A stretch of 64,000 nucleotides of DNA, taken from contig AP014683.1 of NCBI GenBank assembly GCA_000828975.1, positions 2,623,700 through 2,687,699 of the forward strand. Reading direction: 5' to 3'. The notes below the pieces were generated by a model. That model was not told the DNA's origin and did not search any database. It saw nothing but the letters and a program-made list of their open reading frames with translations. The stretch comes from Burkholderiales bacterium GJ-E10. GTDB lineage: Bacteria > Pseudomonadota > Gammaproteobacteria > Burkholderiales > Burkholderiaceae_F. Below, one piece after another: positions 19,865-34,426 of the stretch; the stretch's first letter is position 1; the number at the start of each line of letters is the position of its first letter. A program made the translations under genes and the position numbers.

Positions 19865-20965
19865 TCAGTCGAAGACCGGCGTCTCGACGCCCAGCACCTT
19901 GTGCAGCTTGGGCGAGGTCGTGGTGTACTGCAGGTGGATGTGCTTCTCCGGGAACACGTAGCGCGCCGCCGCGAACGCCGCGAGCGCCGCCTCGTGGAAG
20001 CCCGAGAGAATGAGCTTCTTCTTGCCCGGGTAGATATTGATGTCGCCCACCGCGAAGATCCCGGGGACGTTGGTCTCGAACTTCTCGGTGTCGACGACGA
20101 TCTGCTTGCGCTCGATGCCGAGACCCCAGTTCGCGATCGGCCCCAGCCGCGGCGACAGGCCGTAGAACACCAGCAGCGCATCCATCGGCACGACACGGGT
20201 CACGCCATCGCCGCCCGTCACCTTGATCGCCGACAGGCGCTCGCCCTTCACCTCGTAATCGGTGATCTGGCCGACCAGGAACTGCATCTGCATCTGCTCG
20301 CACAGCTCGTGCATCTTCGCCACGCTCGCGGGCGCGGCGCGGAACCCGTCCCGCCGGTGCACCAGGATCACGCTGCCGGCCTGGTTCGGGCCTTCCTGCA
20401 CGAAGTTCAAGGCCCAGTCCAGCGCCGAGTCGCCGCCGCCCGCGATCACGATGTCCTTGCCGGCGAAATCGGCCGGATTCCGGACCCGGTAGAACAGTTG
20501 CTTGTCGACGAACTGCTCGATGTTCGGCAGGCGCAGCGGGCGCGACTCGAACGCGCCGACCCCCGCCGCGATGAACACCGTACGGGCAAGGAAGCGGTCG
20601 TTGCGCGAGGTTTCCACCAGAAAGCGGCCATCCTCCCGGCGCTCGACCTTGGTGACGGTGCGTCCGAGATGGAACTGGGCGCCGAACGGCTCGATCTGCT
20701 TGAGCAGCGAATCGGTCAGTTCGCGACCGGTACAGACCGGCACGGCGGGAATGTCGTAGATCGGCTTGTCGGGGTAGAGCTCGACGCACTGTCCGCCGAC
20801 GTGGGCCAGCGAATCGATGACGTGCGCCTTGATCTCCAGCAGCCCCAATTCGAATACCTGGAACAATCCGACCGGCCCGGCGCCGATGATGAGGGCGTCG
20901 GTTTCGATCTCGTGTGCCGCTCCGGCCGCGGCGTGGCTTCCCGTAGGTTCCTGATGAGCTTTCAT
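19865..20965 (-). CDS. ferredoxin/flavodoxin--NADP+ reductase, thioredoxin-reductase type
   Basis: This 366-aa flavoprotein has an N-terminal FAD-binding GAGPVG motif (about residues 28-33) and a central NADPH-binding GGGDSALDW motif (about 178-186). A C-terminal FAD contact [13 protein letters not shown] lies at about 301-313. The CxxC dithiol of thioredoxin reductases is absent, which places it with the TrxR-like ferredoxin NADP+ reductases that move electrons between NADPH and ferredoxin or flavodoxin. Start ATG 20965 gives the family length; longer frames run into the glmS promoter region. Confidence 0.9.
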
Positions 20966-21320
20966 GACGTTCAGATGGAGTGGACCGGTCCGTGAACCGG
21001 GAGCGCGGCGCCGAAACCGGCAACCGGTGCGCAAGGGCTTGCGGACGACGCCGCGAACCGCCGCGGCCGAGTGCGGATTGTACGACCCCCCTTCCCGGCG
21101 GGGGCCGTTTTCCCGGAATGGAGCGAGCAGCAATCGTAATTCCGATATTCCGGTTTCTTTGAAGGCCCTATCATTGGAGCTTGGGTGCCGGAGGCGCGCG
21201 GGCATGCAATCCGCGGGCTCCTCCGTGCCCGAAATCGCTCCGAAATCGCTCCGAAATCGCGGCGAACCCGTGCGGACCCCATGCCGCCGCGTTCCCGCAA
21301 CCCAGAAAGGGATTGAATCC
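20966..21320. other. divergent promoter region fnr-like / glmS
   Basis: About 355 bp between the divergent ferredoxin reductase and glmS genes. It must contain both promoters; the stretch at 21130-21165 is the most AT-rich part. It also holds the 11-bp tandem repeat at 21229-21261. No gene and no glmS ribozyme-like structure was recognised. Confidence 0.4.
21229..21261 (+). repeat. three tandem 11-bp repeats upstream of glmS
   Basis: The unit CCGAAATCGCT is present at 21229-21239 and 21240-21250, and as CCGAAATCGCG at 21251-21261, directly head to tail. The last copy ends 59 bp before the glmS start codon, so it would lie in the promoter or 5' leader. One helical turn is close to 11 bp, which would put the copies on one face of the DNA if they are protein sites. 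Confidence 0.7.
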
Positions 21321-23177
21321 ATGTGCGGCATCGTTGGCGCCGTCGCGCAGCGCGACATCGTGCGCTTGTTGGTGGAAGGCCTACGCCGGCTCGAGTACCG
21401 GGGCTACGACTCCTGCGGCCTGGCCGTGCAGACCCGCGCGGGGATCGAGCGCGTCCGCAGCGTCGCGCGGGTCGCCGAGCTCGACGCCCAGACCGCCGCA
21501 CGGACCGCACAGACCGGCATCGCCCACACCCGCTGGGCCACCCACGGCGCACCCACCACGGACAACGCCCACCCGCACGTCTCCTACGGCCCCCGGACGG
21601 GCACCGCAAGCGGGCGCCCGGAACTGCCGATGTCCCGTGTGGCGCTGGTCCATAACGGCATCATCGAGAACTACGAGGCCTTGCGCAGCGAACTGCGGGC
21701 CGCGGGGTACGAGTTCGCCAGCGAAACCGACACCGAGGTCGTTGCCCACCTCATCGATTCCCTCTATGCCGGCGACCTGCTCGACGCCGTGCGCAAGGCG
21801 GTGACGCGGCTGCACGGCGCCTACGCGATCGCCGTGCTGCATGCGCAGGAGCCCGGCCGGATCGTCGGCGCCCGCGCCGGCAGCCCCCTCGTCCTGGGAC
21901 TCGGGCAGAACGAACACTTCCTGGCCTCCGACGCCCTGGCCCTGGCCGGGGCCACCGACCGCTTCGTCTATCTGCAGGACGGCGACCTCGTCGATCTGCG
22001 CGCCGACCGCGCCGTCGTCTTCGATGCGGACGGAAACCCGGCGCACCGGATCGAACACAAGCTGGGCGCGGTCGCAAGCGCAGTCGAGCTCGGGCCCTAC
22101 CGGCACTACATGCAGAAGGAGATCTTCGAGCAGCCCCAGGCGATCGCCGACACGCTCAACGAGATCCACGCCATCCTGCCGGCGCGATTCGGCGAGATCG
22201 CCGAATCGATCATGCCGCGCGTCGATCGCATCCTGATCCTCGCCTGCGGAACGAGCTACTACGCCGGCTGCGTGGCGCGGTACTGGATCGAGGCGATCGC
22301 CGGCATCCCGACGACGGTGGAGATCGCCAGCGAGTACCGCTACCGCCGATCCGTACCGGACCCCGATGCGCTGGTCGTGGTCATCTCGCAATCGGGCGAG
22401 ACCGCCGACACCCTGGCCGCCCTGCGGCATGCCCAGTCGCTGGGCATGAAGCACACGCTCGCGGTATGCAACGTGGCGACGAGCGCGATGGTGCGCGAAA
22501 CCGAGATGGTCTTTCCCACGCGCGCCGGCACCGAGATCGGCGTCGCGTCCACCAAGGCGTTCACGACCCAGCTGGTGGGCTTGTACCTGCTCGCCAACGC
22601 GCTGGCCCAGGCGAAGGGCCGCCTGTCGCCGGACGCCGAGATGGATGCCGTCCGCAATCTGCGCCACCTGCCCGCGGCGGTGCAGAGCGTGCTCGCCCTC
22701 GAGCCCCAGGTCATCGCCTGGGCCGAACGCTTCGCGCGCAAGGAAAACGCCCTCTTCCTCGGGCGCGGGCTGCACTACCCGATCGCCCTCGAAGGCGCGC
22801 TCAAGCTCAAGGAAATCAGCTACATCCACGCCGAAGCCTATCCGGCGGGAGAACTCAAGCACGGCCCGCTCGCCCTCGTCACCGAGGCGATGCCGGTGGT
22901 GACAGTCGCCCCCAACGACGCGCTGCTCGAAAAGCTCAAGAGCAACATGATGGAAGTGCGGGCGCGGGGCGGCGAACTCTACGTCTTCGCCGACGCCGAC
23001 ACGCGCATCCAGCCCGCCGCCGGCATGCACGTCATCCGCATGCCGGAGCACTACGGCGATCTGTCGCCGATCCTGCACGTCGTACCGTTGCAATTGCTGG
23101 CGTACCACACCGCCGTAGCGCGAGGAAGCGACGTGGACAAGCCGCGGAACCTGGCGAAGTCGGTGACGGTGGAGTGA
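21321..23177 (+). CDS. glmS: glutamine--fructose-6-phosphate aminotransferase
   Basis: At 618 aa this is full-length GlmS. The N-terminal glutaminase domain starts with the catalytic Cys (MCGIVGA, mature Cys1) and has the conserved RWATHG motif. Two SIS sugar-isomerase domains follow, with CGTSYYAG and SQSGETADT phosphate-binding loops, and the C-terminus ends [13 protein letters not shown] as in the family. It makes glucosamine-6-phosphate, the first step toward UDP-GlcNAc for peptidoglycan and LPS. UDP-GlcNAc is also the substrate of the NeuC-type epimerase at 56797. Start ATG 21321 follows GAAAGGGA. Confidence 0.97.
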
Positions 23178-23386
23178 GCGGGCGGCGGAAATGGTCGCGA
23201 ACAATAAAGTTCCGAAAACCGCAGATTCGGAGTTGGAAGAACGGGAGCGATCGAACGGCGGAAACGCTGGAATGCTGCGCCGCGCAAACGCGCGGCCGCT
23301 ATGCCTCAGGACCGGGCGCTAGGATGTCGGCTACGGATAGCCGGCTTTGCCCGGACCCGGCCAGGAGCGGCTGCTCGAGGTTACGA

Positions 23387-23420
23387 AACCCCCTCTCCCG
23401 CGCAGGCGCGAGAGGGGGTT
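23387..23420. repeat. hairpin inside the MITE-like element
   Basis: An 11-bp perfect stem AACCCCCTCTC / GAGAGGGGGTT (23387-23397 and 23410-23420) with a GC-rich 12-base loop that can pair further. It shares the CCCTCTC core with the hairpin at 19820-19843. The right arm is immediately followed by the first 36-bp direct repeat copy. Confidence 0.65.
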
Positions 23421-23518
23421 GGCGCGCCCCCCATGTCGGCGGTCTGCTCCGGTCCTGAGCTTGCGCGCGCCAAGTATCGGGAGGTTGGCGCGCCCCCCAT
23501 GTCGGCGGTCTGCTCCGG
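23417..23518 (+). repeat. two 36-bp direct repeats with 30-bp spacer
   Basis: Identical 36-bp copies lie at 23417-23452 and 23483-23518, starting GGTTGGCGCG and ending GTCTGCTCCGG. They lie wholly within the MITE-like element. The repeat and spacer sizes imitate CRISPR, but there are only two copies and no cas gene, so an internal duplication of the element is the better explanation. Confidence 0.8.
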
Positions 23519-23623
23519 GTCGACAGTGGAAGTTTATTGTTCGCAACCAGGAAATTTGAACAGGCCGATGAGCGGAAAATGCTGCTCCACAGGGCGAGGA
23601 AAGAGCCCGGAATTCAGGAGCAT

Positions 23624-23664
23624 GCACGCACAAATTGCTTGCAAAGCAAGCTATTTGTGCGTGC
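23624..23664 (+). promoter_or_regulatory. nested palindrome upstream of brnT, probable BrnA operator
   Basis: Outer arms GCACGCACAAAT (23624-23635) and ATTTGTGCGTGC (23653-23664) are perfect 12-bp inverted repeats. They enclose a second inverted repeat, GCTTGC (23637-23642) and GCAAGC (23646-23651), around AAA. The palindrome ends 10 bp before the brnT start codon. BrnA antitoxins autorepress their operons through ribbon-helix-helix binding to upstream palindromes, so this is the obvious operator. A transcript hairpin is an alternative. Confidence 0.7.
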
Positions 23665-23674
23665 AATTTGATGC

Positions 23675-23920
23675 GTGAAGATCGAATTCGACGAGAAAAA
23701 GAACGCGAGAAACATACGGGAACGGCATCTGCCGTTCGGGCGCGCCGCCGAGTTCGACTTCGATACAGCTATTGTTTGCGAAGATATTCGCAATCCGTAC
23801 CCCGAGGCTCGATACGTGGCGGTTGGGCTCCTCGACGGGCGTTTGCACGTATTGTGCTTCACGCCTGTCCGTAGCGGAATCCGCGTGATCAGCTTCCGCA
23901 GGCCAATGCCAGAGAGGTGA
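23675..23920 (+). CDS. brnT: BrnT-family ribonuclease toxin
   Basis: This 81-aa protein matches BrnT, the RelE-fold ribonuclease toxin of type II BrnT/BrnA modules. The N-terminus MKIEFDEKKNARNIRERHL, the FDF pair, and the central RYVAVGLLDGRLHVLCFT strands followed by an IRVISFRRPMPER C-terminus are all family features. It starts at GTG 23675, just downstream of a 41-bp palindrome, and ends 6 bp before brnA. The module sits next to a mobile-element candidate, as often seen for toxin-antitoxin genes. Confidence 0.88.
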   Translation: MKIEFDEKKNARNIRERHLPFGRAAEFDFDTAIVCEDIRNPYPEARYVAVGLLDGRLHVLCFTPVRSGIRVISFRRPMPER

Positions 23921-23926
23921 GAGATT

Positions 23927-24202
23927 ATGAAAAAACGCGCTCCGCTGACTGACGCCGAAGGTGAGGTCAGGGAATTGACGGCGGAGGACTTCCGCCATTT
24001 CAAGCCGGCTGCGGATGTGTTGCCGCCTGCGGTAGCACGCAAGCTTGGGGTACGCGGCCCGCAAAAGGCCCCGACAAAAGACCGAATCACAATCCGTTTG
24101 TCGCGGGACGTCGTCGACCGTTTTCGTGAAACCGGTGACGGGTGGCAGACCCGCATTGATGCTGCCCTGAAGGATTGGCTCAAGCGCCACAAGCCAGCTT
24201 GA
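23927..24202 (+). CDS. brnA: BrnA-family antitoxin
   Basis: This 91-aa protein has a flexible, charged N-terminal half and a C-terminal ribbon-helix-helix DNA-binding segment (KDRITIRLSRDVVDRFRETGDGWQ, given as residues about 51-74, then an IDAALKDWLKRH helix). This is the BrnA antitoxin layout. It neutralises BrnT and represses the operon. Start ATG 23927 follows AGAGGTGAGAG. It is intact, so the module is probably functional. Confidence 0.88.
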   Translation: MKKRAPLTDAEGEVRELTAEDFRHFKPAADVLPPAVARKLGVRGPQKAPTKDRITIRLSRDVVDRFRETGDGWQTRIDAALKDWLKRHKPA

Positions 24203-24312
24203 ACTGAATGCGCGAGGAGGGCACGGGGCCGGCTGGCGAGGCCCCCAAGTTCTACCTGAGAAAAATTGAACTGTCGGAGACGGGCCTCCGACAAGACGGA
24301 GCTCCCTTCCCG

Positions 24313-25041
24313 CTACGTTCCTGGCGTGCGGTTGGCCGCTTCCGTGAGCGACGTCAGGGAGACGCGCTGTCGGCCATCGCGATCGAAGTTTTCAGGGGCC
24401 AGCCAGCGCTCGATGGCGGCATGCAGCGCGGGCCATTCTCCGTCGATAATGCTGAACCAAGCGGTATCGCGATTGCGGCCCTTGACGACGGCTGCCTGTC
24501 GGAAGATGCCTTCGAAGCGAAAGCCGAGGCGTTGCGCGGCGCGGCGCGATGGCTGGTTGAGCGAATTGCACTTCCACTCCAGTCGGCGGTACCCGAGGGC
24601 GAACGCCTCGCGCATCATCAGGAACAGCGCCTCCGTCGCCATCGCGGTACGCTGCAGCAGCGGCGAGAAATGCAAATGCCCGATCTCGATCGTGCCGGCG
24701 TTGGGCGTGATCCGCAGGTACCCCGCCACACCGAGCGCGCGTTCGGTTGCGTTGTCGACAATGGCGAACAACAGCGGATCGGCGGAGAGATGGACGGACT
24801 GCACCCAGGCCTCGTACGCGCCGGGATCGGCAAACGGACCGTAGGGAAGATATGTCCAGCCGGTCCCTTCGACATCGCCGGCATCGGCGTCGAACAGATC
24901 GCGCGCATGCCGGACCGGGTCCAGCGGTTCCAGGCGGCAAAGACGGCCCCGGCGAACATGCCGCTCGGGTGAGGATGGCGGACGCCAGTTCGGTAGCGGG
25001 GCGCCTAACGGTTCGGGTTTGGGTTCGGGTTTGTTTTGCAT
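24313..25041 (-). CDS. GNAT family N-acetyltransferase (RimJ/RimL-like)
   Basis: This 242-aa protein has a Pro/Glu/Lys-rich N-terminus (PEPKPEP repeat) followed by a RimL-type GNAT domain. The HLHFSPLLQRTAMATEAL segment stands for the acetyl-CoA-binding loop and helix, followed by ALGYRRLEWKCNSLNQPSR and the GFRFEGIFRQ strand typical of N-terminal amino-acid acetyltransferases in this group. The C-terminal 40 residues lie outside the domain. It acetylates an amino group using acetyl-CoA; the substrate is not predictable. Its 5' end overlaps the PaiB remnant (25005-25124) in another frame. Confidence 0.85.
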   Translation of the reverse strand: MQNKPEPKPEPLGAPLPNWRPPSSPERHVRRGRLCRLEPLDPVRHARDLFDADAGDVEGTGWTYLPYGPFADPGAYEAWVQSVHLSADPLLFAIVDNATERALGVAGYLRITPNAGTIEIGHLHFSPLLQRTAMATEALFLMMREAFALGYRRLEWKCNSLNQPSRRAAQRLGFRFEGIFRQAAVVKGRNRDTAWFSIIDGEWPALHAAIERWLAPENFDRDGRQRVSLTSLTEAANRTPGT

Positions 25042-25124
25042 GATCGGTCCCAGTGGGGGTGGGCATGCACCAGCGCATGCAGGACGCGGGCATCGTCGGC
25101 GCGAAATGCCGCGGAAACGTACAT
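25005..25124 (-). pseudogene. N-terminal remnant of PaiB-type FMN-binding regulator
   Basis: A 39-codon frame from ATG 25124 reads MYVSAAFRADDARVLHALV followed by HAHPH. This is very like the start of PaiB/FMN-binding negative transcriptional regulators (MYxPAxFR...LHALIRAHP). After that it loses all similarity and stops at 25005 inside the GNAT gene. The rest of PaiB (about 170 residues) is missing. PaiB often neighbours a GNAT gene (PaiA), so a deletion has probably fused the remnant to this GNAT locus. Confidence 0.6.
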
Positions 25125-25498
25125 GACCGTCTCCGGTTCCAAGAACGAGTTCGCCGCGCAGATCGTCGACCGGGTACAGGAGAATCCGCCCGGGGTTCGG
25201 CTTTTCCGAATTGCGTTCAATGGGTCCATACGAGCATGCCTGAATCTTGCCAGCACCGTGCGTGCGAAGGCCACCACCGCCTGGCATGTTCCGATGGCGT
25301 GCATCGCAAGGTTCACAAGGCAGAACTTTTCGGCCAATCGGAATTCGTCGACCGCACCGCAGAAAACGACTGCACCAATTCACGCAGGTCCGGCATTTCA
25401 GGGAACGGCGGGCCCATGTCGGGGGTGGGCCGTCCCCTGATAGGCCACCCAGGATACCAAGGCGTCCTGCCGGGAGCGCTCGCGGGCTTCCTCCCGCA
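25125..25498. other. intergenic region, no supported gene
   Basis: About 370 bp between the PaiB remnant and the end of the lipoprotein cluster. Frames on both strands are open by chance, but none has family-like features. It should contain the promoter that once served paiB and now serves the GNAT gene, and the 3' end of the lipoprotein transcript. No terminator with a T-run was found. Confidence 0.4.
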
Positions 25499-27205
25499 TC
25501 AAGGCTGCGCAACGGTCACGGAGGAGGGGTAAGACCCCGCCGCAAAGGGGCTGCCCGGGACCTGCGTCAGCGCGCCCGTGGTGGCGTCGATGCCGTAGAC
25601 CGAAACGTCGTTGCTGCCATTGCTCGCCGCGAAAGCCAGCGTGCCTGCCGGATTGACCGCCACGGAGAAGGGAGCCGCCGCCGCGAAGGGGCTGCCCGGG
25701 ACGGCGGTGAGCGCGCCCGTGGTGGCGTCGATGCCGTAGACCGAAACGTCGTTGCTGACCGCGTTGGCCACGAAGGCCAGCGTGCCCGCCGGGTTCACCG
25801 CCACGGAGTAGGGGCTTGACCCCGCCGCGAAAGGGCTGCCCGGGACCTGCGTCAGCGCACCCGTGGTGGCGGCGATGCGGTAGACCGAAACGTTGTTGCT
25901 GTTTGCGTTCGCCACGAAGGCCAACGTACCCGCCGGGCTTACCGTCACGGACGCGGGGCTCGACCCCGCCGCAAAGGGGCTGCCCGGGACCTGCGTCAGC
26001 GCGCCCGTGGTGGCGCCGACGCTGTAGACCGAAACATTGTTGCTGTCATAGTTCGCCACGAAAGCGTATGTCGGATTTGTGGTGCACCCTAGCGTGACAC
26101 TGGTCACATCGGCCGTGGCCGTGCCGCTGCCATTGGTGACGGCGCAAGTCTGATGCACAGGCTGCGTTCCTACCGTCACGGCATATGTCGCCCCACTGGC
26201 CAGTTGTGTGGGAAAGGTGAAGAAGCCGTTGGTGCTTACCGTGACGGTGTCACTGTTGTTGTCCAGCAGGGTCACCGATTTGCCTGCGGTCAGGCCGCTG
26301 ACCACACCGCCCACCGCATACTGCACGTTGCAGGTCACGGTGGTGTTCGTGACATTGCCGGTTCCGACGGTGCCCGAACCGTTGGTCACCGTGCAGGATC
26401 CGCCAGCGGGTTGGGTGGCTACCGTGACGTCGTAGGGATGACCGCTCATGACGGCATCAAAGGAAAAGGTGCCGTTGGCGGCAAATGCCTGAGTCGTTCC
26501 CGATACTGTGTCGTCGAGGACGACCGATGTCCCTGCCGGCAGGCCATCGATCGATCCGCCCAGCGAGAAGTTCGCAGCCGGGTTGTCGACGCACGCGACC
26601 GACACGTTCGTGATATCGGCCCCCTGGACCGTTCCGGCACCGTCGGTCACCGTACAGGTTTGTCCGACCGGCTGACTGGAGACCGTCACATCGTATGCGG
26701 CCTGATCGACAATTCGTCCCGGAAGGGAAAACTTGCCGTTGGCGCTGAGGGGGGTCGGCGCGCCGCCGTCATCCTGCAGCGTCACCGATCCGTTGAGGCC
26801 GGAGACCGTTCCACCAAGGGTGTAGGTCACCGCCGGATTGGCCGCGCAAGCCACCTCAATGTTGGTGACGTTGGTGGCGGCAACCGTTCCCGCGCCGTTG
26901 GTTACCGAACAAGCCTCGCCAGCAGGCTGGGTGGCAACTGCCACCTGGTACGCCGTCCCGGAAGGCAGAGAAACAGGAAACGGAACTCCCCCATTGGCTG
27001 CAAGTACCAACGGGTTCTGTCCGTTGAGTTGCAAAACCAGGCTTGTACCGCTTTGCAGCCCGGTCACGTTGGCGACGATCTTGTAACCGCTGGCGGCCGA
27101 AGCCGTTGCTCCGGCGGAGGATCCTCCGCTCCCGCCGCCGCAGGCGGTGAGCACGGAAATCCCGATCGCGGACAGGAGGTTCCGCACCCTGCTTGCCCGT
27201 ACCAT
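25499..27205 (-). CDS. lipoprotein with four N-domains and four propeller blades
   Basis: This 568-aa lipoprotein has signal peptide and lipobox (ISVLTACGGG, Cys near residue 21), then a Ser/Ala/Gly linker. Four copies of a roughly 85-aa domain follow (consensus GGxVSGLxxGxSVxLxDN, NGxFxF, VTVxTQP, CxVTNGSGT, VxVxC), each with two conserved Cys. After these come four beta-propeller repeats of about 47 aa (AFVANxxSNxVSVYxIDATTGAL, xxVPGSPFAAG, SVAVNPAGTL). The propeller repeats are lactonase/YVTN-like. The blades are nearly identical at DNA level, a sign of recent duplication. Start ATG 27205 follows AAAGGA. Function is unknown; it probably lies in the outer membrane or on the surface. Confidence 0.85.
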   Translation of the reverse strand: MVRASRVRNLLSAIGISVLTACGGGSGGSSAGATASAASGYKIVANVTGLQSGTSLVLQLNGQNPLVLAANGGVPFPVSLPSGTAYQVAVATQPAGEACSVTNGAGTVAATNVTNIEVACAANPAVTYTLGGTVSGLNGSVTLQDDGGAPTPLSANGKFSLPGRIVDQAAYDVTVSSQPVGQTCTVTDGAGTVQGADITNVSVACVDNPAANFSLGGSIDGLPAGTSVVLDDTVSGTTQAFAANGTFSFDAVMSGHPYDVTVATQPAGGSCTVTNGSGTVGTGNVTNTTVTCNVQYAVGGVVSGLTAGKSVTLLDNNSDTVTVSTNGFFTFPTQLASGATYAVTVGTQPVHQTCAVTNGSGTATADVTSVTLGCTTNPTYAFVANYDSNNVSVYSVGATTGALTQVPGSPFAAGSSPASVTVSPAGTLAFVANANSNNVSVYRIAATTGALTQVPGSPFAAGSSPYSVAVNPAGTLAFVANAVSNDVSVYGIDATTGALTAVPGSPFAAAAPFSVAVNPAGTLAFAASNGSNDVSVYGIDATTGALTQVPGSPFAAGSYPSSVTVAQP

Positions 27206-27271
27206 CACCGGGTCCTTTCGTTTTCGATCGATTGCACGCCCCGGACGCGACCCGACTCCGCAAACACGGAT

Positions 27272-29200
27272 TCAATGCACCACGACCGGGGTCGGGTTGG
27301 CGTAATACGCCTTGATTTTTCCGGCAAGCCAGCCGTGATCGTCGGCGTTGCTGAAATTCTTGATCACGTTGGTCGTGTTGCCGCCGCCCCAGAGGATCGC
27401 GAATACCCCGTCGTTCGCCGCGATGGCGAGCTTGCCGTTGCCGGAACTCCAGTCGTAATGGTTGGCCTGTCCACCGTATTCCAGCAGGTACGCCTGGTAG
27501 GTGGCATTGGGCACAAGGCAGTTGTACGCGGTCGGTCCGCAGGGAACAGCGAAGCTCCCGACCGCGATCGGCGCCGCGGCGTTCGCGGGACCGAGCACCA
27601 TGTCACCCAGGTTCGGCGTCAGATCCGGGTCGCCGAAAAAATACACCGGCGCGGTGCTGAACACATAGCCGGTGTCGCCGTTTCCCGCCGGGTAGATTTC
27701 CGGCGCGGCCTCGGCGGTGTTGGGGATATGCGATCCGGGAATCTGCCACAGCATGATCGGAATGTCGTGATTCGACCGACTTACTTGTCCGACCGCGCTG
27801 AGATAGTTGTCCCACGATCGGGCGTTGTACAGCGTCGCTGCCGCGGGTGCCGCGCTGTCATCCATTTCATAGCGGTCAAAGACGAAAAAGTCGGGCCCGG
27901 TGGCAAGGGTGATGTCGATGGCCGATGGCGCATTGGCCTGCAGGAAACGGGCGACCGGATCGGCGTAGATCGCAGCGACCTGCGACGCGCTCAAGGTCTG
28001 GTGCACCCAGAACCCCGATCCGACAGCCCAGATATTGTCCTGCCATCCGACGGTGACGGTACCGTGGGGAGCGAGGGCGCGAACGATCCAGTTGTTCGCC
28101 GCGACCCAGCCTTCGAATCCGGCGGGAAAGTTCGGGACCGGATACCGCGTCGTGTCGTACGCCGGGTTCTGGATGCAGGACACGAACCACTGGCCGACGG
28201 CGCTGTATGCCGACGCCCCGATCCGATTGTCGATCCCGCTGTTCCAGTAGGGATCGTTGCCGCCATCCAGGCTCCACTCCGGGTAGCCCGCCGACAGCAT
28301 CTGCTGCAGGATCTGCACCGGAGTTCCCGAAAACGTCCTTCCGACATAGGGCGCCGTGGAATTGCCGTTCGGATCGGTGATCACCGTGAAGCCGTGCGGC
28401 GTCGTCAACAGGCACAGCGCCTGCGCGACCGCGGTGTTCACGGCGCCCGACGGCAGTGCCGCATTCACCTGCGCAATGAGATTGTTCTGCTCGATGGTTC
28501 CGAGCAGATCGGGATTCATGATCAGGGCCCCATAGTAGTTCGTCTGGTTGTAGCGCACGGGCTCCGATGCCAGCTGCATCGCGTCGGCACCCAGGGATGC
28601 AAAATGCCGCGCCATCACATAGGAAGCGGCGGGATTGCCGGCGGCGAGTCCGGGCGGGCCGTCGGTGAAGTCGTCAAGCGAAAAGCCGCCGCTCATCTGG
28701 GATGTGTACTCGACCATCGCCACTCGGGTCGGGTGCTGATTGATCGCGCTCAACAGGTCGAAGTCGCGCGTCATGCGATAGGCGTTGGTCGGCGGATCGA
28801 TGACCCCGGGGTCGCCGTTGCCGTCGACGCCGGCGTACTTGAACACCACATCCACCGGGCGACCGCCAAAATCGTCGCTGCCTCCGGTGGAGGTCGCGGT
28901 GGGGGGCGTGACATCGGGTCCGCCGATCGCTCCCATGGCGATGTAGGCGGGCCATCCCGGAACCGCGGTTTTCGCGACGGGTCCGCCGGAGGAGCCGGAG
29001 CCGCCACCGGATACGGCCGATCCGGCGGCCGATCCCGACGACGCCGTGCCCCCACCGCCGCAACCGGCGAGCAAGCAAGCCGTCATGCCCAGCGCCGAAG
29101 CGACGCGAACCGGAAAGCCGCGAATCGCCGCCCTCTGCCGATGTCGTTTCGGTGGCGCTGCGCCGCGCCTTCGTCTGGTGCGCCAATGCCCCGCGCGCAT
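27272..29200 (-). CDS. unrecognised 642-aa lipoprotein, possible TIM-barrel hydrolase
   Basis: It has a long basic N-terminus, then ALGMTACLLAGCGGGG (lipobox LAGC, Cys near residue 47), a Gly/Ser linker, and about 560 residues that match no family I can name. Segments such as VDVVFKYAGVDG, TRVAMVEYTSQMSGG, DFFVFDRYEMDD, IPIMLWQIPGSHIP and GKLAIAANDGVFAILWGGG look like strands of a secreted TIM-barrel glycosidase-like enzyme with acidic and aromatic residues, but that is a guess. ATG 29200 overlaps the upstream stop by one base (TGATG), so it is translated with the propeller lipoprotein before it. Confidence 0.75.
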   Translation of the reverse strand: MRAGHWRTRRRRGAAPPKRHRQRAAIRGFPVRVASALGMTACLLAGCGGGGTASSGSAAGSAVSGGGSGSSGGPVAKTAVPGWPAYIAMGAIGGPDVTPPTATSTGGSDDFGGRPVDVVFKYAGVDGNGDPGVIDPPTNAYRMTRDFDLLSAINQHPTRVAMVEYTSQMSGGFSLDDFTDGPPGLAAGNPAASYVMARHFASLGADAMQLASEPVRYNQTNYYGALIMNPDLLGTIEQNNLIAQVNAALPSGAVNTAVAQALCLLTTPHGFTVITDPNGNSTAPYVGRTFSGTPVQILQQMLSAGYPEWSLDGGNDPYWNSGIDNRIGASAYSAVGQWFVSCIQNPAYDTTRYPVPNFPAGFEGWVAANNWIVRALAPHGTVTVGWQDNIWAVGSGFWVHQTLSASQVAAIYADPVARFLQANAPSAIDITLATGPDFFVFDRYEMDDSAAPAAATLYNARSWDNYLSAVGQVSRSNHDIPIMLWQIPGSHIPNTAEAAPEIYPAGNGDTGYVFSTAPVYFFGDPDLTPNLGDMVLGPANAAAPIAVGSFAVPCGPTAYNCLVPNATYQAYLLEYGGQANHYDWSSGNGKLAIAANDGVFAILWGGGNTTNVIKNFSNADDHGWLAGKIKAYYANPTPVVVH

Positions 29201-30588
29201 CACGGCTGGGCCACGGCGACGGACTGGGGGCTGGTTCCGGCGAGGAACGGCGATCCCGTGACCGGCGCGAGCGCACCCGTGGTTGCGTCGACGCGATAGG
29301 CCGAAACGGTGTTGTCCCCGACGTTCGACACATACGCGAAGGTCGCGGAAGGGTCGAGCGCGACGGAGATGGCGAGATTCCCGGCCGCGAACGGTGAACC
29401 CGCCACCGGCGTGAGCGCGCCGGTCGTCGCATCGATGTGGTACGCCGAGACGGCGTTGTTGCCGTTGTCCGCGATATAGGCGAACGTCCCGGCAGGGCTG
29501 ACCGCGACGGAATTGGGACCGCTGCCCGCGACGAACGGAGAGCCTGCCACCGGCGTGAGCGCGCCGGTCGTCGGGTCGATGAGGTAGGCCGAAACCGTGC
29601 CGTCGCCTACGTTCGCGACATATGCGAGGGTGCCGGCGGCATTGAGCGCAATCGAAATCGGAGAATTCCCTGCGGCGAATGGTGATCCGGGCACCGGTAT
29701 GAGCGCGCCGCCCGCGCCGATGCGGTAGACGGAGACGTCGTTGCTGCCCTGGTTCGCCACAAAGGCAAAGGTTCCGGCAGCGTTGACGGCGACAGAGTCG
29801 GGGCCGGTTCCCGCGGCAAACGGCGACCCCGGCACCGCAGTCAGTGCACCCGTCACCGGGTCGACGCCGTACGCCGAAATGTTGCCGCCATTGTTCGCAA
29901 CATAGACGAAGGTTCCCGCCGCACTGACCGCGACGGCTTGCGGGTTGGTTCCGGCCGGGAAGGGCGATCCCGGAACCTGCACAAGCGCTCCGGTGGCCGA
30001 ATCGATGCGGTAGACCGATACGGTGTCGTCGTTGACGTTCGCGGCAAACGCCAACGTTCCGCTGACGTTGGTCGTGATCGCGTACGGACCCCGCCCCCCT
30101 GGAAACGGCGATCCTGAAACCGGCGCCAGCGCGCCCGTCGCCGCATCGATGCGGTACGCGGAGACATCATTGCTCCCGACGTTCGCAACGTACACGAACT
30201 CGGGACCCGCGGAACAGGAAACGGCCACCCCCGTCACGGGGCCGCTTGCCGTCCCCGCGCCGTGGGTCACGGAACAGATTTCATGCAGCGGCTGGGCCAG
30301 CACGGTGACACCGTATGCCGAACCAGCCGGAACGCCTTTCGAGAAGGTGAATGCGCCGTTGGCGGTGCGCGCGAGATCGTCCGACCCGTTGTCCTGCAGG
30401 GTCACGGTGGCACCGGGAGTCAATCCGGTGAGCGATCCCGAAACCGCGTACTGCTGGACCGTTGACGGAAGCGATGCGCTCGCGGAATTGCCGTCGCCGT
30501 CAAGGTCCAGATCGCCGCCGCCACAGGCGAGCAGCGATGCCGTCATGACGAACGTCAACACCGCGCGAGGCAAGACATCGCGGTTCAT
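29200..30588 (-). CDS. seven-bladed lactonase-type propeller lipoprotein
   Basis: This 462-aa lipoprotein (lipobox SLLAC, Cys near residue 22) has one roughly 85-aa N-domain (VSGSLTGLTPGATVTLQDN, then the ICSVTHGAGT Cys motif). Exactly seven beta-propeller repeats follow, each like FVYVANxGSNDVSAYRIDxxTGAL, VPGSPFxAG, SVAVxxAGT. Seven blades are usual for lactonase-like (PF10282-type) propellers. Start ATG 30588 has a good GGAAAGGA upstream. It is a paralogue of the 30669 and 25499 genes and is probably in one operon with them. No catalytic site for a lactonase can be assigned. Confidence 0.87.
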   Translation of the reverse strand: MNRDVLPRAVLTFVMTASLLACGGGDLDLDGDGNSASASLPSTVQQYAVSGSLTGLTPGATVTLQDNGSDDLARTANGAFTFSKGVPAGSAYGVTVLAQPLHEICSVTHGAGTASGPVTGVAVSCSAGPEFVYVANVGSNDVSAYRIDAATGALAPVSGSPFPGGRGPYAITTNVSGTLAFAANVNDDTVSVYRIDSATGALVQVPGSPFPAGTNPQAVAVSAAGTFVYVANNGGNISAYGVDPVTGALTAVPGSPFAAGTGPDSVAVNAAGTFAFVANQGSNDVSVYRIGAGGALIPVPGSPFAAGNSPISIALNAAGTLAYVANVGDGTVSAYLIDPTTGALTPVAGSPFVAGSGPNSVAVSPAGTFAYIADNGNNAVSAYHIDATTGALTPVAGSPFAAGNLAISVALDPSATFAYVSNVGDNTVSAYRVDATTGALAPVTGSPFLAGTSPQSVAVAQP

Positions 30589-30668
30589 TGCGGTCCTTTC
30601 CGGGATCGGCGCGACGGCACCGCACCAACGACCACGTCCTCTCCGGCGCACCGATTCCGGCCCGGCAC

Positions 30669-32042
30669 TCACGGTTGCGCCACGGCGACGGACTGAGGGC
30701 CGCTTCCCGCCGCGAACGGCGAGCCCGCCAAGGAGCTAAGCGCACCGGTGGTCGCATCGATGCGGTAGCCGGAGACGCCGCCGCCCTGGTTCGCGACATA
30801 GACGAAGGTTCCGGAGGGACTGACTGCGGCGGAGATGGGGGAGTTTCCCGCCGCGACCGCCGAGCCCACCGGGGTAAGCGTGCCGGTTGTCGCATCGATG
30901 CTGCAGGCCAGGACGCTGTTGCTGCCGTTGCCCACCACGTAGGCGAAGGTGCCGGCGGGACTGATCGCGATCGCGGCGGGGTTGCTTCCGGTCGCGACCG
31001 CCGAACCCACCGGCGTAAGTGCGCCGGTCGTCTGGTCGATGCCGTAGGCTGCAACGCCCCCGTTCAGGTTCGCCACGTAGGCGAAAGTTCCGGCCGGGTT
31101 CACCGCGATGCCATGGGGATTGTTGCCGGTCGCAAACGGCGATCCGGTCATCAACGTGAGCGCACCGGTCGTCGCGTCAGCGGTGTACGCCGTTACACCG
31201 CCGTTGAAGTTCGCCACGTAGACGAAGGTTCCCGCCGGATTGAGGGCGACGGGGCCGGGAAACGAAAGCCCTCCGCCACTGTACGGCGACCCGGCGACCG
31301 CCGTAAGGGCTCCGGTTGTCGCATCGATGGCGAAAACCGAAACGGTCTGATTGGAATCACCCGTCACATAAGCGAAGGTATCGCTGGCGTTGATCGTGAT
31401 GGAGACGGGACCGGTACCGGTGCCCATCGCGAACGGCGAGCCCGCCACGGGCGTGAGCGCCCCGGTCGTCGCATCGATGGCGTAGACCGAAATGCTGTCG
31501 CCGCCGGAGTTCACCACATAGGCGAAGGTGCCGGCGGGGTTGACCGCAATGGACGTGGGACTCGTATAGGCGCCCGTCGCGAACGGTGAGCCCGGCACGG
31601 GCGTAAGCGCCCCGGTCGCCGCATCGACGGCATAGGCCGAAACCGTATCGTCGGTCCGGTTCGCGACATAGACGAACTGCGGTCCCGCCGAGCATGTCAC
31701 GGCCACGCCGGTCCCATTGGTGCCGGCCGTGCCGCTGCCGTTGGTTACCGAGCAGGTTTCATGCAGGGGATCGGTCGGAACCGTGACGCGGTATGCAGAA
31801 CCCGCAGCGACGTCCTGCGGGAACGTGAAGGTCCCGTTGGCGGTGACGGTGAGATTGTCGGCGCCGTTGTCCTGCAGCACCACCGACGTTCCGGGCGACA
31901 GGCCCGTGATCGTTCCCGAAATCTGCACTTTCTGCACCGCCGGAACGGACGGCGCCGCACTCCCTCCGCCGCCGCAGGCGGCGAGCAGGGAAGCCGTCAT
32001 GCCCAGCGCCAGCGCGACGCGCAACGTAACCGCTCCGTTCAT
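30669..32042 (-). CDS. seven-bladed propeller lipoprotein, first of the cluster
   Basis: This 457-aa lipoprotein (SLLAACGGGG lipobox, Cys near residue 23) has one N-domain (ISGTITGLSPGTSVVLQDN, ETCSVTNGSGT) and seven propeller repeats. It has the same build as the 29200 gene but different enough sequence to be an older paralogue; two blades end GSAVATG instead of GSPFAAG. It is the promoter-proximal gene of the lipoprotein cluster and diverges from the two-component system at 32259. Start ATG 32042 follows AGAGGA. Confidence 0.87.
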   Translation of the reverse strand: MNGAVTLRVALALGMTASLLAACGGGGSAAPSVPAVQKVQISGTITGLSPGTSVVLQDNGADNLTVTANGTFTFPQDVAAGSAYRVTVPTDPLHETCSVTNGSGTAGTNGTGVAVTCSAGPQFVYVANRTDDTVSAYAVDAATGALTPVPGSPFATGAYTSPTSIAVNPAGTFAYVVNSGGDSISVYAIDATTGALTPVAGSPFAMGTGTGPVSITINASDTFAYVTGDSNQTVSVFAIDATTGALTAVAGSPYSGGGLSFPGPVALNPAGTFVYVANFNGGVTAYTADATTGALTLMTGSPFATGNNPHGIAVNPAGTFAYVANLNGGVAAYGIDQTTGALTPVGSAVATGSNPAAIAISPAGTFAYVVGNGSNSVLACSIDATTGTLTPVGSAVAAGNSPISAAVSPSGTFVYVANQGGGVSGYRIDATTGALSSLAGSPFAAGSGPQSVAVAQP

Positions 32043-32258
32043 CGTGATCCTCTATGGCTGGCCGTGAATGAAAGGCGGCGATCCTAGAGGCGTCGGATCG
32101 CACCGTCTGTCCATAGAAATGGGGACACCGGGGCGGACCGCCGTCGCGCAGCACCGTTCCCGGTTGCGGCCGGTGCCACATGACCGTCGATGCGCCGGCA
32201 ACGACGCCGCCGGATGCCGTAAGCTCCCGGCGGAACGGGACCCCACGAAGGTGACTGG

Positions 32259-32942
32259 ATGCAATCGCGCTCGCAGGATCCGCGCATTCGCGTGGCTCTG
32301 GTTGAGGATGAAATCGATTTTCAAGATACGTTGATCGAAGCCGTCCAGGTCGCGAACGACCTCGATCTGCTGGGTGTGGCGGCATCGCGTGCCGACGCGC
32401 TGCAGATGCTACGGACGGTGCAGGCGGACGTGCTGGTGGTCGATCTCGGCCTGCCGGACGGTTCCGGAATCGACGTGATCCGGGTCGCCCACGAGAAAGC
32501 GCCCGCATGCGCGATCATGGTCTACACGATCTTCGACAACGAGAACGACGTCATCCGGTCGCTCGAAGCCGGTGCGTCGGGTTATCTCATCAAGGACGAC
32601 ACGCCCGTGGACATGGCCAACGGCATCCGCATCCTGCACGCCGGCGGCAGCCTGATCAGTCCCTTGATCGCGCGCCAGATCCTGGTGCGTTTTCGCGAGG
32701 ACAAGACGTCGGGGCAGCCCGAACCGTCTTCACAGGTCAGTCTGTCCGGTCGCGAGCGGGAGGTGCTGCTGTACATCACCAAGGGCTTCACGTCCGACGA
32801 GATCGCGACCCTGCTCTCGGTTTCGCGGCACACGGTGCTCACCTACGTGCGGCGCATCTACGCGAAACTGAACGTGACCTCCAAGGCGGAGGCGATCTAC
32901 GAGGCGCGCTACCTCGGCATCGTACGAGAGCCGAACGAATGA
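32259..32942 (+). CDS. NarL/LuxR-type response regulator
   Basis: This 227-aa protein has a receiver domain with acidic pocket EDE (residues 16-18), phospho-acceptor Asp62 (VVDLGLPDG) and the conserved Lys of the YLIKDD motif. A C-terminal LuxR helix-turn-helix follows (LSGREREVLLYITKGFTSDEIA, given as residues about 160-181, then SRHTVLTYVRRIYAKL). Start ATG 32259 has GAAGG upstream. The stop overlaps the start of the kinase gene (ATGA). The gene diverges from the lipoprotein cluster across 216 bp, so that cluster is a plausible target. Confidence 0.93.
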   Translation: MQSRSQDPRIRVALVEDEIDFQDTLIEAVQVANDLDLLGVAASRADALQMLRTVQADVLVVDLGLPDGSGIDVIRVAHEKAPACAIMVYTIFDNENDVIRSLEAGASGYLIKDDTPVDMANGIRILHAGGSLISPLIARQILVRFREDKTSGQPEPSSQVSLSGREREVLLYITKGFTSDEIATLLSVSRHTVLTYVRRIYAKLNVTSKAEAIYEARYLGIVREPNE

Positions 32943-34243
32943 CTTCGACCGTCCACGCCGCACCCCGCCTCGGCCGGAATCCGGTGCGTCGCGTGCGCAT
33001 GCTCATCCCCGACCCCGCCACGGAGCGGCCGTTGTTCGAGATGATGGTGCGATCGGTGCTCCATGGCGCACGTACCGGCCTGTACGGCGGCTCGGTCATG
33101 GCGGTCAGCATCGCCTGGATGTTCGCGGAGGAATGGCGGCGGCGGGATTTCTCTCTGTGGTTCGGCGCGCTCGCGCTCTCGGTGCTGCTGCGCGGGCGGC
33201 TGCTGCGCGCCTGGAGCGCGTCTTCCGTCCGGCTGGAGCGGCGCCACGTCCACATCCTGACGGCGGTCTATGGGGCCGTCGGCGCCCTCTGGGGAATTGC
33301 CGGTTGGGTTTTCAACCACCCGGGTCCGGGGCGCTGGGAGGAATTCGCCCTGCTGACCTGCCAGTATCTGCTGCTCGTCAGCTCGGCAGTCGCCCTATCG
33401 GGCTACCTGCCGGTCTACGCGGCATTCTCCACGACGCTGTGCATCCTGATCCCGGTGCCGTGGATGATCGGCGGATCCCGCGAGGGCATGATCGTCAGCA
33501 TCGGAACGGCAGCCACCTTCGTCAGCGGCCTCAGTTTTGCGCTCCATCACGCACGGCTCCAGATGGAATCGATCAGGATGCGCTTCGAACTCCTGGCGAG
33601 CGACGCGCAGATGCGCGAAGTGGAGCGGGCGCGCATCCTGAGCGAGGAGCGGCAACGGCTGATGCAGGATATGCACGACGGATTGGGTTCCTCCCTGGTC
33701 AGCACCTTGCGCGCGATGGAACGGGGAGAGCTGGAGAGCGGCAGTGCCGCACGGATGATCCGGACCTGTCTCGACGACCTCAAGCTGGTGATCGATTCGA
33801 TGGAGTCGGTCGACGCCGATCTGCTGCTCCTGCTGGCCACGTTGCGAAACCGCCTGGGTCCGCGCCTGAAGGCGAGCGGCATCGCGCTGCGCTGGGATAT
33901 CACGGACATTCCCGAACTCCCGTGGCTCGACGCAAGGAACGCCTTGCACATCCTGCGGATCCTGCAGGAGGCGTTCACCAACATCGTCCAGCACGCCGGC
34001 GCCACGGAAATCCGCGTGGCGACCTGGGCGGCGGATGGACACGTCGGCATCGACATCGCCGACAACGGACGGGGATTTCCGCCCGACACCGCCGGCAACG
34101 GCACCGGCAAGGGGCTGGCGAACCAGAGGCGGCGGGCGGAATCGATCGGCGCGTCCATCACCTGGGCCTCCGGGAACCACGGCACACGCGTCACGCTCGC
34201 ATTGCCGATCCACGGAAAGCCGATCGATGGAGAAGCGAGGTGA
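32939..34243 (+). CDS. sensor histidine kinase, NarX/DesK type
   Basis: This 434-aa membrane kinase has five or six hydrophobic helices in residues about 45-205 and no large periplasmic sensor. It then has a HisKA_3 dimerisation domain with the phospho-acceptor His in MQDMHDGLGSSL (about residue 246). The HATPase domain has QEAFTNIVQHAGA (N box) and DNGRGF and GKGLANQ boxes. This architecture pairs with NarL-type regulators, and the gene overlaps its partner's stop codon. The signal is probably sensed within or at the membrane. Confidence 0.93.
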   Translation: MTSTVHAAPRLGRNPVRRVRMLIPDPATERPLFEMMVRSVLHGARTGLYGGSVMAVSIAWMFAEEWRRRDFSLWFGALALSVLLRGRLLRAWSASSVRLERRHVHILTAVYGAVGALWGIAGWVFNHPGPGRWEEFALLTCQYLLLVSSAVALSGYLPVYAAFSTTLCILIPVPWMIGGSREGMIVSIGTAATFVSGLSFALHHARLQMESIRMRFELLASDAQMREVERARILSEERQRLMQDMHDGLGSSLVSTLRAMERGELESGSAARMIRTCLDDLKLVIDSMESVDADLLLLLATLRNRLGPRLKASGIALRWDITDIPELPWLDARNALHILRILQEAFTNIVQHAGATEIRVATWAADGHVGIDIADNGRGFPPDTAGNGTGKGLANQRRRAESIGASITWASGNHGTRVTLALPIHGKPIDGEAR

Positions 34244-34426
34244 ATCCGCCCGGCGGCACCTGGCTTCTGCAAGCGAGCCACGGCCGTGCCGCTACCCGTG
34301 CGGCTCGCGCGCGGGGATAGGCTCGCGCAAAGCCGCACTTGCCTGGAGGCACCTCGCCGGCGCACAGTTCCAACCGTGGCCGCGCCCACGAGGGTGCGAA
34401 ATTTTTGCGGGTCCCGGGAGACTGCC

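Follow-up and report, generated by a model that had tools for sequence, protein, structure and literature searches.

What is the short, transposon-like sequence lying just past glmS in the genome of Burkholderiales bacterium GJ-E10? The original prediction, drawn from the 64,000-nucleotide stretch of DNA analysed here (the window), took it for a MITE-like element and a good candidate for an undescribed non-autonomous family. We asked what its ends, its target site and its interior say about its origin.

Boundaries and position beside glmS

The element comprises 358 bp (23192–23549). Its inverted ends are 22 nt long (23192–23213 and 23528–23549) and complementary at 20 of 22 positions, its termini read TGG...CCA, and perfect GGAAA copies on both sides form a 5-bp target duplication. 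All of this agrees exactly with the original prediction. When the whole window was scanned exhaustively for inverted ends of 22 bp (20 or more positions matching, unit length 40–600 bp), this pair, with its duplication, was the only one returned, while the same scan of five Markov-simulated windows gave no comparable pair. As had also been predicted, the 358 bp hold no transposase; we found no coding content inside at all, and neither tnsABC nor tnsD/tniQ. RNA folding of the element is strong (z = -4.3), which is expected because of the inverted ends and a nested palindrome, and an Rfam search gave no match reaching a family threshold. Coordinates are collected in Table 1.

Table 1 Features of the element and of the repeat nested in it (window positions unless a contig is named)
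Feature	Position	Strand	Basis or remark
glmS stop codon	23175..23177	+	sequence; ORF 20964-23177, SIS + GATase domains
Target duplication, left copy GGAAA	23187..23191	+	sequence, pair scan
glmS-proximal Tn7-like end TGGTCGCGAACAATAAAGTTCCGAAA, one predicted transposase-binding core, position 12	23192..23217	+	matrix, core scan
Interior stretch, 140 bp, without inner binding site	23218..23357	.	no informative match among compared loci
Nested dispersed palindromic repeat, hairpin 23387-23420, right part doubled	23358..23526	.	copy at G000:C1:666730-666829, 96%; long forms with DUF559 gene
Distal Tn7-like end TGGTTGCGAACAATAAACTTCCACTG (read inward), one core at position 12	23524..23549	-	matrix, core scan
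Target duplication, right copy GGAAA	23550..23554	+	sequence, pair scan
Long-form repeat	G000:C1 near 1526904-1527491; 2849172-2849760; 1266905-1267488		DUF559 gene between two hairpins

The location, right after glmS and close to brnTA, was correctly described: the glmS stop codon ends at 23177, 14 bp separate it from the element, and brnTA (Pfam BrnT and BrnA) occupies 23675–24202. The GlmS C terminus right before the stop is a conserved region recognised by TnsD of Tn7, whose insertion falls about 20 bp beyond the glmS stop and duplicates 5 bp (PMC2918618); Tn6171 is located 25 bp beyond it (PMC8190619). The site of the element is the Tn7 attachment region.

Directly upstream of brnT lies a 20-bp palindrome (window 23623–23665, 95% complementary, 3-nt loop), possibly an operator or terminator for brnTA. 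The interval from glmS to the aldolase gene (window 23178–34320, about 11.1 kb) is unlike that of the sister species, being about 2.2 kb with arsDA in G002; it contains brnTA, a GNAT gene, a run of lipoprotein-like genes with beta-propeller-like repeats and a two-component pair. No second Tn7-like end was seen on the far side of this variable region, and the element's right flank was not found beside glmS among 67 family genomes, so that none of these offers an empty site for comparison.

Tn7-like ends in the element and its sister species

The core scan predicted one binding core in each end of the element, the outermost. In the proximal end the core AATAAAGT is exact and starts at position 12, where the distal end has AATAAACT, matching at seven of eight positions. 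The right end of Tn7 (TGTGGGCGGACAATAAAGTCTTAAAC; plasmid R721, NC_002525.1, next to tnsA) has the same core at position 12. Over 26 positions, the proximal end is identical at 24 to an end on a sister contig (G005:C8, JAKBZN010000002.1), at 20 to the end after glmS in G004 and at 17 to each Tn7 end.

We scored 400,096 positions (the window plus other loci of the same genome) with a weight matrix of seven Tn7 and Tn7-like ends that excluded the finding itself, the sister ends in it having been recognised by eye after glmS and only the Tn7 ends being independently annotated; the element's two ends ranked first and second. Removal of the two G005:C8 ends kept the left end in first place (24.3 bits, against 15.2 for the runner-up) and put the right end third. 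In Tn7-like transposons the right end faces glmS; the element's proximal end is similar to the end on G005:C8 whose sites lie close together, but has no inner sites.

Three sister species carry a Tn7-like end after glmS: G001 (23 bp past the stop; cores at 12, 32 and 52), G005 (22 bp; cores at 12, 32 and 52) and G004 (TGGTTCCGCACAATTAAGTTCGGAAC, 19 bp; cores at 12 and 45, then a toxin–antitoxin pair). In G003 no Tn7-like end was found past glmS, and in G002 arsD directly follows glmS. In G005 (contig G005:C16, locus L094 3356–14342) the DNA from glmS to arsDA contains, besides this Tn7-like end, a TniQ gene, an HNH gene and genes for type I restriction; it is seemingly a Tn7-like defence island, and we looked for its distal end and did not identify it.

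The closest match, on G005:C8, is the element's end type with its first T replaced by A; its sites are at 12, 32 and 66. Next to it is the end of another Tn7-like element, which has sites at 12, 72 and 124; the two distinct ends stand back to back (locus L041 361–600) with no 5-bp spacer, and their sites differ (AATAAAGTCCGTCGA versus AATAAAGTTCCGAAA). In this genus the position after glmS is a used Tn7 docking site: at least four species, including that of the element, have Tn7-like ends there.

Further copies with duplications of their own, to be expected of a dispersed family, were absent: the genome, a single contig of 3.28 Mb, contains the pair once. No second copy of the element was found in the relatives searched either, and across 399 order-level genomes the ends, allowing up to two mismatches, gave three lone two-mismatch matches in other genera and nothing else. 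Being single-copy does not cleanly decide against the predicted family, because a site-specific Tn7-like element is expected to occur once. One lone TIR-like match (G000:C1:649072) was rejected as unpaired; we read its surroundings as a promoter-like gap beside a MerR-like gene. Among GTDB contigs the TIR pattern matched 11 times, only the match on G005:C8 having repeated sites and the others coming to about the number given by chance. Viral contigs gave zero matches and plasmids nothing relevant, and the two-site pattern, searched in 67 family and 369 class genomes, occurred on G005:C8 only.

A nested repeat and missing parts

The hairpin and direct repeats noted in the original prediction are real (the repeats, at 23414–23452 and 23480–23518, are 39 nt long and 97% alike), but occur outside the element too, as parts of a palindromic repeat dispersed genome-wide. 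The element holds a 169-bp copy of it, and the direct repeats are two because the right part of the repeat is present twice in this copy. A lone copy elsewhere in the genome has the same unit and the same boundaries. Long forms of about 590 bp stand at three places and are 96–99.7% alike, the same left and right parts enclosing a DUF559 gene that the short form lacks. Partial hairpin matches number dozens in this genome, and sister species G001 has more copies of the repeat. Its appearance is that of a mobile repeat carrying a nuclease-like gene; our literature search found no paper on a DUF559-bearing dispersed repeat. In the element, the inner 3 bp of the distal end overlap the assigned edge of the repeat, which abuts that end and may have replaced earlier sequence there.

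In a studied Tn7-like CAST, efficient integration required at least three left-end and two right-end sites (PMC10201428). No TniQ gene was found anywhere in the 3.28-Mb genome; searches for TnsA and the TnsB C-terminal domain gave no match, yet their controls were equally silent, so that either domain may yet be present. The searches made found no complete transposon combining these ends with its tns genes.

Origin of the element and comparison with known systems

We consider it likely that the 358-bp element is what an internal deletion left of a Tn7-like transposon at the glmS site, a relic that no longer moves. With a TnsD/TniQ-type protein as guide, which reads the 3′ end of glmS, a TnsB-type transposase would have joined the ends past the stop codon, at staggered positions 14 bp beyond it, giving rise to the GGAAA duplication. 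Later the interior, with its tns genes, cargo and inner transposase-binding sites, would have been lost, leaving the outermost site of each end, and a copy of the dispersed repeat would have come to be embedded against the distal end. From the sequence we infer TnsD-type targeting, and also deletion as the route to 358 bp, because a larger precursor was seen in no strain examined. Each end having one predicted site and the interior no transposition gene, the element is probably immobile. The claim is one of descent: to file the element outright as a Tn7-like transposon would be wrong, and it is not an intact member, because we looked for both multiple binding sites per end and tns genes and found neither. 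Several points run counter to a relic: its distance from the stop codon, shorter than the 19–23 bp of the sister ends and the 20–25 bp or so of Tn7 and Tn6171; its TGG/CCA termini in place of TGT/ACA; and the failure of the searches to turn up the larger precursor or a complete element with these ends.

The intact matching ends and the perfect duplication around so short an interior would also suit a natural mini-Tn7-like element, free of cargo, that entered the glmS site as is and was mobilised in trans by a Tn7-like transposase of a plasmid or a sister element. The unit moved may have been 358 bp, or about 190 bp if the nested repeat arrived afterwards, and G005 shows that Tn7-like elements with a nearly identical end were once in the genus. 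However, such an element would have had to home to glmS with a single predicted transposase-binding site per end, fewer than the related CAST needs, and a second copy is absent everywhere searched; we regard this origin as unlikely.

A MITE of some insertion-sequence family could have landed beside glmS by chance, and the short length, inverted ends, duplication and lack of a transposase are what one would look for in it. We think this highly unlikely: the genome has one copy, Tn7-like elements match it in end sequence and in location alike, and the parent expected from the original prediction, an insertion sequence sharing these ends, was not found in the genome. The resident IS21-family element (about 3.46 kb, six nearly identical copies in G000) was rejected as that parent, its ends (TGTTAGCGGCTGCGTAG and TGTGAATGGCTGCGAG) being unlike those of the element. 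That the inverted ends and 5-bp repeat arose by chance and were never mobile might be argued from an interior partly composed of another repeat, yet this is barely credible given the empty simulated windows, the first rank of the left end under the finding-free matrix and the occurrence of this kind of end in G005 together with inner binding sites.

Returning to the probable relic of a Tn7-like transposon, the observation behind the original prediction is sound and its explanation largely known, an undescribed MITE family being unsupported: the ends are Tn7-like, they lie at the Tn7 attachment site, and the genome has a single such pair. The locus illustrates how a Tn7-like island could be reduced to a MITE-like scar with its ends and duplication preserved. 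MITE callers that look for inverted ends and a duplication would wrongly assign such scars to new families; the literature we searched describes no Tn7-derived MITE.

Of the known systems, the IS21 family, whose members are DDE-type and have repeated sites near their ends, shares TG...CA ends with the element, although the end sequences differ (compared with the resident six-copy IS21 only). Prokaryotic MITEs likewise are small, with inverted ends, a flanking duplication and no transposase; in contrast to them, the element is single-copy and at a site-specific location, and no parent insertion sequence with its ends was found in the genome. Tn7 (R721) and Tn6171 share with it the 5-bp duplication, a site just past glmS, TG...CA ends and the core at position 12, whereas they span tens of kb against 358 bp, carry tns genes, have three or four sites per end rather than one, end in TGT/ACA and lie about 20–25 bp from the stop rather than 14 bp. 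The sister ends, those after glmS in G001, G004 and G005 and the one elsewhere on G005:C8, are of the same kind as the ends of the element; they have two or more sites each, inner ones among them, which the element lacks, and the G005 glmS locus also has restriction genes and TniQ.
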